From the NCBI RefSeq assembly GCF_012272825.1, contig NZ_JAAWWS010000139.1, positions 1-64,000 of the forward strand: DNA of 64,000 nucleotides, in the 5' to 3' direction. The position numbers and the translations under genes were made by a program. Source of the stretch: Wenzhouxiangella sp. XN79A. GTDB lineage: Bacteria; Pseudomonadota; Gammaproteobacteria; Xanthomonadales; Wenzhouxiangellaceae. This document shows positions 1 to 11,842 of the stretch, in pieces (position 1 is the first letter of the stretch; each line of letters starts with the position of its first letter). Under the pieces are notes generated by a model. That model was not told the DNA's origin. It did not search any database and saw only the letters and a program-made list of their open reading frames with translations.

Positions 1-680
1 CGAAGCGCGTGGCGAAACGCTTGTAGCCAGAACCCCGGCACAGCCGCCGGACGCGGCTCCAGCAATACGCGAAGAAAGCAAACCACCTCTCAGCCGAAGC
101 CTGTGGCCGACCAGCGACGGCTCGGCCTGGCCCTGGCTTCGAGGATGCATCCGGGGCCACTGTAACCCGCAGCCGGAGTGAGCCAGGGCGCGGTCCGACC
201 ATCGGCCCACCGACGCAATCCGGAAGCCACTGCCCGTTCCGCCGCCTTTGAAGAGCGCTTTTGCCTACTTTTGTCGCGATTGACAAAAACAGGTCGCCAG
301 AAAGCGGACGAAGTCCGCGTGGCGAAACGCCTGTAGCCAGAACCCCGGCAGAGCCGCCAGACAGGGCTCCGGCAAGACGCGAAGAAAGCAAACCACCTCT
401 CAGCCGAAGCCTGTGGCCGACCAGCGACGGCTCGGCCTGCCCCTGGCTTCGCGGATGCATCCGGGGCCACTGTAAACCGCAGCCGGAGCGAGCCAGGGCG
501 CGGTCCGACCACCGGTCCACCGTCACTGCCCGAAAGCCACGGCCCGTTCCGCCGCCGTTGAAGAGCGCTTTTGCCTGCTTCTGTCGCGACTGACAAAAGC
601 AGGTCACCAGAACGCAGGCCAAGCCCGCGTGGCGAAACGCCTGTAGCCAGAACCCCGGCATAAACAGCCGGGCCCGGCTC
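1..680. repeat. 310-bp tandem repeat array, truncated by the window edge
   Basis: A unit of about 310 bp occurs at least twice and starts a third time. The marker GCGTGGCGAAACGC begins at positions 7, 317 and 627, an exact 310-bp period. Each unit holds the same blocks in order: the GTAGCCAGAACCCCGGCA block, an AGACGCGAAGAAAGCAAACC-like block, and a small hairpin of the TTTTGTC/GACAAAA type near 275-290 and 585-600. The third copy diverges after about 680, shortly before the 3' end of the methionine gamma-lyase gene. Open frames here differ between copies and look like no protein family, so I call it non-coding. The array may continue upstream of the window. Confidence 0.85.
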
Positions 681-739
681 CAATGATTCCCGCAGAAAGC
701 AATTCCCGGAAAGGAGTGCCAATGGCAATGGCGATCGAA

Positions 740-1963
740 TCAGGCCACTCGAATGTGAGCCAGCCGCAGCGCGCGCTCGAGGTCGCCCACCAGGTCCTCG
801 ACGGTCTCCAACCCCACCGACAGCCGGATCAGGCCCTCGGCTATGCCGTGTCGGGCTCGCTCCTCGGGCGTCATCGTCGAATGGGTCATGCTGGCCGGAT
901 GCTGGATCAAGGACTCGGCATCGCCCAGCGAGACTGCGCGTCGGATCAGGCCCAGCGAGTCCATGAACCGCACGCCCGCCTCGAGCCCACCGTCGAGCTC
1001 GAACGCGATCATGCCGCCGAAGTCGTGCATCTGGCGGGCCGCCAGGGCGCGCTGCGGGAAGCTCGGCAGGCCGGGATAGTGGACGCTCGCAACGCCTGGC
1101 TGGCGCTCCAGCCAGGCGGCGATCGACGCGGCCGAGCGACAGTGGCGCTCCATGCGGAGTTCCAGGGTCTTCAGACCGCGCATGACCAGGTGGGCGGTCA
1201 GCGGCGCCATGACCGCACCGGTGAGATCCTTCAGTCCTTCCATGCGAACACGATGAATGCCCTCCTCGGGCCCGATCACCGCCCCGGCAACGAGGTCGCC
1301 GTGACCCCCGAGATACTTGGTCGCCGAATGGACGACGAAGTCGGCACCGTGCTCCAACGGACGGGTCAGCACCGGGGTGGCATAGGTGTTGTCGACCACC
1401 ACCGCCGCACCACGCGCGTGGGCCGCGCCGGCCACCGCTTCGATGTCGACCAGGCGCATGGTCGGGTTGGCCGGGGTTTCGAAGTAGACCACCCGGGTCG
1501 CAGGTCCGATCGCATCGGCGACTCGTTGGGGTTCGGAGAAATCAGCGTGCCGGATGTGCACGCCGAACCGGGCCAGGCCGTGGTGCAGGAACGCGAAGGT
1601 GCAGCCATAGAGCGCCTCGTCGGCCAGGATTTCGTCGCCGGGCGACAGCAGTGTCCACAGCAGCGAGGTGATCGCACCCATGCCCGAGGCAGTGGCCAGT
1701 GCGGCTGTTCCACCCTCCAGCGACGCCAGGCGGCGCTCCAGCAGGTCCACGGTCGGGTTGGAAATGCGCGAGTAGACGTGGCCGGGCTGCTCGCCGGCGA
1801 ACCGCGCCGCGCCCTCGGCGACGCGGTCGAAGACGAAGGTCGAGGTCATGTGGACCGGCGGGGTCAGCGCGCCGTGCGGGTCGTCGGGCGATCCGTCGGT
1901 ACCGGCGTGGATCGCGCGGGTGGCAAAACCGGGCTTCGGCGGGCGGCGGTCGTTGGCGTGCAT
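740..1963 (-). CDS. mdeA: Methionine gamma-lyase (PLP-dependent)
   Basis: Splits L-methionine into methanethiol, 2-oxobutyrate and ammonia in the cytosol. The 407-residue product belongs to the Cys/Met-metabolism PLP family (fold type I). It has the PLP lysine in SATKYLGGH (about K216), the cofactor aspartate in DNTYATP (D191), and LYGCTF with Tyr119 and Cys121. That cysteine separates methionine gamma-lyases from cystathionine enzymes, and the whole protein resembles the Pseudomonas putida enzyme from memory. The ATG at 1963 is chosen because an AGGAG lies 7 bases before it; an in-frame ATG at 1981 lacks such a site. It is divergent from an Lrp-type regulator, the same arrangement as mdeA/mdeR. 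O-acetylhomoserine sulfhydrylase is a less likely alternative. Confidence 0.88.
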   Translation of the reverse strand: MHANDRRPPKPGFATRAIHAGTDGSPDDPHGALTPPVHMTSTFVFDRVAEGAARFAGEQPGHVYSRISNPTVDLLERRLASLEGGTAALATASGMGAITSLLWTLLSPGDEILADEALYGCTFAFLHHGLARFGVHIRHADFSEPQRVADAIGPATRVVYFETPANPTMRLVDIEAVAGAAHARGAAVVVDNTYATPVLTRPLEHGADFVVHSATKYLGGHGDLVAGAVIGPEEGIHRVRMEGLKDLTGAVMAPLTAHLVMRGLKTLELRMERHCRSAASIAAWLERQPGVASVHYPGLPSFPQRALAARQMHDFGGMIAFELDGGLEAGVRFMDSLGLIRRAVSLGDAESLIQHPASMTHSTMTPEERARHGIAEGLIRLSVGLETVEDLVGDLERALRLAHIRVA

Positions 1964-2099
1964 CGGTGGGCTCCTGCGCATGTCGATAAGGAATCGCGAT
2001 GGCGATGACGCCAGACTACGACCGCCCTTGCGGCAGGTGCTTGCCTATTCTGCTTCGGGTAAGATGGAAATTGGCATCTTCTGCCAGGATCAACGCCAT

Positions 2100-10829: not shown

Positions 10830-11005
10830 AAAGGCGTTTCGCGGCTGGCTGCGCCAGCTGATGCGAGGTACTTCTGAGGCCCCGAAAGTACCCGGAATGG
10901 CTGCGCGAACATCGCCGCCCGGCCTGCGGCCGGGTGCCCTGGAATGCTCGGTGCGAGCGGGGCCAGAAGAACTCGCTGCGCGCCTTCGGCGCTTCGCTCG
11001 GACAC
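10830..11005 (-). repeat. Dispersed repeat, copy A (inverted relative to copy B)
   Basis: Read on the minus strand this segment begins ATGTCCGAGCG-like at 11005 and ends near the CATCAGCTGGCGCAGCC block. It aligns end to end with copy B at 11281-11470 on the plus strand. Shared blocks in order are a CGAGCGAAG-type run, CTCGCACCGAGCAT, and CGCATCAGCTGGCG. Conceptual translations of both begin MSERS and share PLAPSI, but the insertions and deletions between copies do not preserve frame, so this looks like a non-coding repeat family. Confidence 0.75.
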
Positions 11006-11102
11006 CTTCCGGCCCGATTGTCATGACAAGCGCGCTCGCCCCTGCGCTTCTCGGCGGCGCTGACGGCGGGGCACGTCAAACGCCGACCCGCACTCCGTTC
11101 CA

Positions 11103-11175
11103 CCTGTTGGAGGGCGCTTGCGCGCGAACGGGTTCTGCCGGGGCCACCCTTCGCCCGCAAGCGGCCTCCAACAGG
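11103..11175. repeat. REP-like hairpin element 1
   Basis: A 73-bp imperfect palindrome. The left arm CCTGTTGGAGGGCGCTTGCG and the right arm ending GCGGCCTCCAACAGG pair over 24 bases with two mismatches around a loop of about 25 bases. Its arms are the same as those of the element at 11634-11704, so it is a repeat family and not a one-off terminator. There is no T-tract. Confidence 0.85.
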
Positions 11176-11280
11176 CCAGCGATGGCGCCCGCCTTTCCGT
11201 GGCGATGGGTTGAATCTGTCTCGAGGGTACCGAAAAGCGCAGGGACGAGTGGAACGATTGCCATCACAATCCGCCGCTGC

Positions 11281-11470
11281 ATGTCTGAGCGTAGCGAGCG
11301 CAAGCGAACGAAGCGAGTTCAGCGGACCCCACTCGCACCGAGCATCGCAGGGAACCCGAGCGAAGCTCGGGCGCCATTGCGGGAAAAGCGCTCTTGCTTG
11401 TGCTGGTCATGACGATCGTCGCCACAAGAGACACGCGCATCAGCTGGCGAAGCAGGCGGCGAAAGCCCTT
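11281..11470 (+). repeat. Dispersed repeat, copy B (inverted relative to copy A)
   Basis: Plus-strand partner of copy A. It starts ATGTCTGAGCGTAGCGAGCG and runs through CTCGCACCGAGCATCG and CGCATCAGCTGGCGAAGC. Together with copy A it forms an imperfect inverted pair separated by about 275 bp that contains hairpin element 1. Relative to copy A it has several small insertions, including GCAAGCGAACGAAGCGAG-like sequence near the start. Confidence 0.75.
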
Positions 11471-11633
11471 CCTGATTACGCATGAACCTCGGCCACGGTC
11501 GGGTAGCGTCCCGACATCGGAGCGTCGCGGCAGGCGATACAGGCAAGCCGTTGGATCATCCGATCGGATTCGAAGGACGGGCTTCCATCACAAGCGAGAT
11601 TCCAGCCCGACGCCGGACTGGCAGAAAGACCGC

Positions 11634-11704
11634 CTGTTGGAGGGCGCTTGCGCGCGAACGACTTCGGAAGCGGCCACCCTTCGCGCGCAGGCGCCCTCCA
11701 ACAG
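11634..11704. repeat. REP-like hairpin element 2
   Basis: A 71-bp palindrome with arms CTGTTGGAGGGCGCTTGCGC and the complementary ending GCGCCCTCCAACAG. They pair over 23 bases with a single G-T-type mismatch. The arms are nearly identical to element 1, while the loops differ apart from a shared GCCACCCTTCGC block. It has no T-tract and lies about 140 bp from the 3' end of tRNA-Gly. Confidence 0.87.
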
Positions 11705-11842
11705 TCGAACCCGGGCAAAAAGCGCTTTCGAAGGGTCCTGGCTTGCTGTTCTCGAGTTTCCTGCACGCCTCCGGAAGGCTGTACTACCGGCTGAGAAACG
11801 TGCCTGATCAGGAAGCCCTTTGAACCATCGAAAAAGAGGAAA

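Follow-up and report, generated by a model that had tools for sequence, protein, structure and literature searches.

What does a tandem array of long units represent when it lies between genes at the very edge of an assembled contig, and is it a peculiarity of that one place or a fragment of something larger? The question is raised by the first bases of the window, i.e. the whole stretch of 64,000 nucleotides analysed here (G000:C22:1-64000, G000 being the source genome, Wenzhouxiangella sp. XN79A), whose base 1 is the end of contig C22, so that the array is cut off there. Tandem Repeats Finder returns a period of 310 bp over positions 6-660, with 2.1 copies, 91% matches, 0% indels and a score of 1093, against 52-74 for the five other arrays of the window. 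The aligned copies occupy 6-313 and 316-625, followed by a 35-bp start of a third at 626-660, with a spacing of exactly 310 bp; the exactly spaced array described in the initial annotation is therefore real, and the internal TTTTGTC/GACAAAA hairpins reported with it lie at 264-293 and 574-603. The third copy goes on, in diverged form, to about 702 (78% over 667-702). Thus, the stretch 1-702 (plus strand) is the array side of an element, composed of two half-units of the kind called type I below (6-313 and 316-625) and a truncated, decaying third (626 to about 702). Within it, Head 1 (249-327, plus strand; 98.1 bits with model R1) consists of the adjacent stem-loops 264-293 and about 294-326, Head 2 (559-637, plus strand) scores 88.1 bits with the same model, and module C (413-473, plus strand) is a palindromic interior stretch of 61 bp that is inverted in type-II half-units and marks the centre of the two-sided element. 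As had been noted initially, the array adjoins the 3' side of a gene for a PLP enzyme of Cys/Met metabolism (740-1981, minus strand; PF01053, E 1.2e-137), for which methionine gamma-lyase is one possible candidate among substrate assignments. By synteny, this gene and the one that closes contig C23 are transcribed towards each other. Two further candidates were discarded: open frames of 220 and 212 aa run across the array and have no Pfam match, and a coding array is rejected because 310 is not a multiple of three and the frame is not kept; as for a plasmid or phage origin, blastn of window positions 1-720 matched no plasmid and no phage, nor did the element at the order-level locus L143 match plasmids.

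The unit is by no means confined to this site, since it matches 66 places in the source genome (E<=0.01), which disposes of a simple one-time duplication and bears out the suggestion of a duplicated intergenic cassette; model R1 detects 69 heads in the same genome at E<=1e-4. No fewer than 19 ends of 16 contigs fall inside a unit match or within 149 bp of one, and scaffold gaps of 50 N sit in several internal copies. The repeat is thus where this draft assembly often breaks, and it accounts for the positions of those breaks. Dissection of the half-units into modules B, C, D and A distinguishes two kinds: type I, the kind present in the window, has the order C-D-head-B and measures about 305-310 bp, and type II carries a head with GGGTAC/GTACC arms and measures 306-365 bp. 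At four loci (L061, L062, L063 and L071) type-II and type-I units stand tail to tail and run in opposite directions from a common centre with module C. Each half has therefore been multiplied in tandem, outward from the centre, and the window array makes up the right-hand portion of an intergenic repeat element that has two sides. Two of these loci, L062 and L063, are free of gaps and hold two type-II units plus one to two type-I units each, i.e. only about three or four half-units. Tandem neighbours in this genome are as alike (0.904, 9 pairs) as units from different loci (0.900, 222 pairs; permutation p 0.30), which speaks against recent local duplication and suggests either homogenisation across loci or the spread of ready-made arrays. 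The recombination hotspot put forward in the initial annotation would be compatible with such uniformity of the units across the genome. Locus L076 (G000:C33:19000-25000) contains older elements of the generic type described below, resembling those of the congeneric genome G004 at C1:524k, C2:131k and C2:347k, so that the source genome carries at least two subfamilies.

Comparison with G004, a congeneric species, places the missing side of the window element. The G004 ortholog of the PLP enzyme gene is 82% identical, and the counterpart of its neighbour lies at the right end of contig C23, where type-II units close the contig; hence the window array continues into C23 across an unassembled gap. 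The initial annotation had proposed that the array may extend far upstream: it does go on beyond the contig, with its other flank at the end of C23, and a very long array is not indicated, given the small number of half-units at the gap-free loci. All four split loci that synteny could place (the window, C14|C19, C30R|C107R and C32R|C39) have type-I units on one side and type-II units on the other. In G004 itself the window site is empty, and some tens of bases separate the stop codons of the two convergent genes; in the source genome, the element separates two genes that almost abut in its relative. Conversely, a G004 element at C2:369320 is absent from the matching site on contig C107 of the source genome, and four further sites are common to both species (C14L|C19L, C30:57k, C30R|C107R and C32R|C39:48.8k). 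At locus L068 (G000:C39:45000-50000), a 50-N gap at C39:48 kb joins an element to a left flank unlike that of G004, and the flank that does match G004 lies on contig C32, so that either the scaffold was misjoined or elements have rearranged with each other.

Outside the source genome, the standard form is a single element of about 460-800 bp, with two outward-facing heads of about 79 bp around a non-coding interior of 300-450 bp. When full head lists were used, all 43 pairs in G018, G004 and G015 (27, 10 and 6 pairs) pointed outwards, and 13 heads (9, 3 and 1) were unpaired, partly at contig ends. In other families, the same orientation was found for 15 of 15 pairs within 1.2 kb at 20 loci, several of which had been chosen for a visible pair. 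Exceptions to the outward rule are the inward-facing pairs of L130 and L131, and L050 has an extra plus-strand head about 60 bp before its pair. In some species, each half of the element repeats the other in inverted orientation: the element at L143 is a palindrome as a whole (72% over 556 columns), L137 and L138 reach 66-69%, and at L261, L269, L268 and L055 the halves are likewise inverted copies over most of their length. In G000, G004 and G381 the inverted likeness is mainly confined to the heads, and the half interiors of G000 and G004 are not inverted copies (z about 0-2). Identity among the 26 aligned copies of G018 is no higher than 71-90%, with a median of 82%, and gives no hint of a recent burst. 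Their outer boundaries are mosaic, and no target-site duplication is evident. G015 has a complete chromosome (C1), and its 13 heads (7 loci; L137-L142 and L277) all cluster from 3,155 kb to 106 kb. This zone makes up about 17% of the circular chromosome and surrounds a gene at 63-1448 that resembles dnaA by eye; such clustering is not apparent for the copies of G018.

In each half-unit, the head is made up of CTTTTG, a short-looped stem of 12 pairs, directly thereafter a second, GC-rich stem, and then GAAA. Among 45 heads from six genomes of the family, 95.6% of cells pair and 9 of 24 pairs covary, with a covariation score of 0.254 as compared with 0.067 in shuffled and at most 0.064 in slid alignments. 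In alignment A1 the arms change together, for instance from TTTTGTC/GACAAAA to TTTTATC/GATAAAA or TTTTGCC/GGCAAAA. In two wider sets, one of 52 heads from the whole order and one of 39 heads from other families (20 loci), both partners have changed in 18 and 17 of 24 pairs, respectively, and the scores are 0.386 and 0.350, although these alignments (A3 and A4) were fitted to the model, so that their counts lean towards it. Three heads with no detectable second stem were left out, and one further truncated head was omitted from A1. The heads have no strand-specific excess of G-U over A-C (9/17, 19/15 and 12/6 in three sets). The stems thus bear no sign of selection on an RNA strand, and a DNA hairpin or cruciform fits them better.

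Bacterial interspersed palindromic repeats are usually either RAYT-dependent REPs or short MITEs of a narrow group. The present heads spread much more widely: model R1 finds them in 15 of the 43 genomes of the family (E<=1e-4; 28 are head-free) and in 20 of 258 genomes of the order (E<=1e-5), and the broader model R2 (E<=1e-5) in 55 of 370 sampled genomes of the class, representing 44 of 273 genera. In a phylum-wide draw, R2 matched 31 of 299 genomes, all 31 belonging to the class of the window (class was recorded for matching genomes). An exact pattern with an AGG end found 3 of 299 genomes and was too narrow, so covariance models were used instead; Wenzhouxiangella sediminis XDB06 is a carrier by pattern match. 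The window repeat is therefore one side of a wide family of non-coding, hairpin-ended intergenic elements present in many gammaproteobacteria; what sets this family apart is how deeply it is conserved and that, in the source genome, its halves have turned into short tandem arrays. Searches of open-licence PMC full text by sequence letters and by topic found no description of it. What matters is that such a repeat occurs in many families of one class and that its double stem-loop is kept by compensatory change, with no dependence on a Y1 enzyme shown.

The explanation that best accounts for these observations, and which is probably correct, is that of a non-autonomous interspersed DNA repeat, similar to MITEs or BIMEs, that is moved or copied by a putative factor and tolerated between genes. 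The heads would be recognised in DNA, as hairpins or cruciforms, by a putative trans-acting factor; copies would be gained and lost between species and tolerated mainly at intergenic sites; within each genome, they may be homogenised through recombination or gene conversion; and the tandem half-units probably arose from recombination or replication slippage between inverted and direct copies. The factor itself, the way in which copies move and the way in which they are amplified are inferred. As no target-site duplication was seen and no transposase is linked to the elements, mobility is deduced from presence and absence in two species only. A broader version is put forward tentatively, and could well prove wrong: the elements would form a class-wide group of DNA elements with paired outward double stem-loops, kept by a putative hairpin- or cruciform-recognising factor other than a Y1 enzyme, whose halves can become tandem arrays. 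If true, the elements would either transpose non-autonomously in a new way or serve to structure the chromosome, and the partner factor should occur in head-rich genomes; if confirmed, G018, G188 and G821 would be the direct place to seek it.

Another possibility, rather unlikely on balance, is that the host selects the elements as bidirectional transcription terminators or insulators, a transcript from either side running first into the second, GC-rich stem and next into a stretch rich in T. The outward-facing heads would suit such a role, as would the position of the window site between convergent genes. Of 42 scored elements (one of the 43 had no scored gene pair), 17 have convergent, 18 tandem and 7 divergent flanking genes, and the excess of convergent over divergent flanks gives a one-sided binomial p of 0.03; however, it comes from G018 alone (13:4, as compared with 4:3 in the other two genomes), and the gene calls rely on a GC3 heuristic. 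Moreover, window positions 1-1000 contain one terminator-like site as compared with 1.6 expected in shuffles, and the congener G004 does without the element at the window site.

A somewhat improbable alternative regards the element as a MITE of a DDE-type insertion sequence, the heads being its long terminal inverted repeats. Its heads are indeed inverted, the open frames of its array lack Pfam matches, and it is intergenic, about 460-800 bp long and polymorphic in presence and absence. On the other hand, no target-site duplication was seen among the 26 G018 copies, whose outer boundaries are mosaic, no parent insertion sequence was identified (the transposase search being that for PF01797), and strongly covarying internal stems are not expected in ordinary insertion sequence ends. 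According to the excerpt of PMC10969869 that treats them, ERIC, Correia/NEMIS, BOX and other MITEs share with the present element its non-autonomous nature, inverted termini, mostly intergenic position and species-variable copy number; the present element differs in being longer, in its class-deep spread, in its covarying double stem-loop ends and in its tandem half-units, and no parent insertion sequence or target-site duplication was found for it. The Beta-proteobacterial repeat element (BRE) of the Burkholderiales, as far as it is portrayed in the relevant part of PMC3110155, is similar in measuring about 90 bp, in being intergenic and in its species-variable tandem copy number, but its GC content is 63.7-78.9% in Bordetella as compared with 36-66% in the heads studied here, a comparison made by description only.

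There is a small chance that the elements are REPs or BIMEs mobilised by a RAYT (Y1, IS200/IS605-like) transposase. As REPs, REPINs and BIMEs are outlined in the portion of PMC3686654 that defines them, the repeat resembles them in its chromosomal and intergenic location, its palindromic inverted pairs, its tandem mosaics and its species-specific versions, and a weak PF01797 gene (a family covering RAYT and IS200/IS605 transposases) is present in G000, G002-G005 and others. That definition also comprises a GTAG or GTGG directly 5' of the palindrome and a cognate RAYT flanked by the repeat. In the head alignments, neither tetranucleotide occurs at either stem; besides, the head is a double stem-loop of about 79 bp instead of about 25 bp, the spacing of pairs is about 400-700 bp, and no RAYT is needed. 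Indeed, PF01797 is absent (E<=1e-4) from the head-bearing genomes G018 (63 heads, 97% complete), G188 (45, 85%), G001 (18, 99%), G010 (5, 99%) and G220 (6, 75%), whereas G017 has six matches and no head, which makes dependence of the repeat on a RAYT unlikely.

It is very improbable that the units encode a small structured RNA or constitute repeated genes of a small-RNA family, as had been proposed initially for the array. The stems do covary, and the unit's minus strand has a more stable fold than its shuffled versions (z -3.03), but the plus strand does not (z -0.82) and the interior is not conserved across species. Rfam searches returned only a tRNA in the window (gathering cut-off) and nothing in five element loci (E<=1), and no sigma-70-like promoter was found for the array. 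A fitted fold of the 26 G018 copies forms one long hairpin with many G-U pairs; selection at the RNA level, once considered from this fold, was dropped, because pairs drawn from a symmetric DNA alignment have no excess of G-U over A-C (145 vs 192 cells, 165 pairs), nor do the stacked pairs (78 vs 64, n=71). Finally, that the tandem copies arose in assembly, by collapse or misjoining of dispersed ones, as the coincidence of arrays with 19 contig ends and 50-N gaps might suggest, is scarcely credible, since tandem copies also occur in the gap-free L062 and L063 and their neighbours differ by about 10%, and so are not duplicated reads.

The window harbours other repeats as well. A second, decayed element of the generic kind spans 10837-11464 (strand not assigned), with outward-pointing heads at 10837-10907 (minus strand, 36.0 bits) and 11382-11464 (plus strand, 21.2 bits), and its interior motifs TCTGAGCG... 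and GAGCATCGCAGGG are shared with G015 and with the order-level element L143. Immediately beyond it, at 11467-11821, lies a different interspersed repeat of about 355 bp, with further copies at L073 (308-663), L062 (4127-4482) and L086 (4145-4493) that are 94-96% identical, have inverted ends of the CTTCCTGAT type and lie next to or within elements of the first family; this repeat has the look of a younger MITE. Inside both of these window repeats, at 11108-11172 and 11635-11702, there is in addition a short palindromic repeat, GTTGGAGGGCGCTTGCGCGCGAAC..., which looks like a conventional REP.
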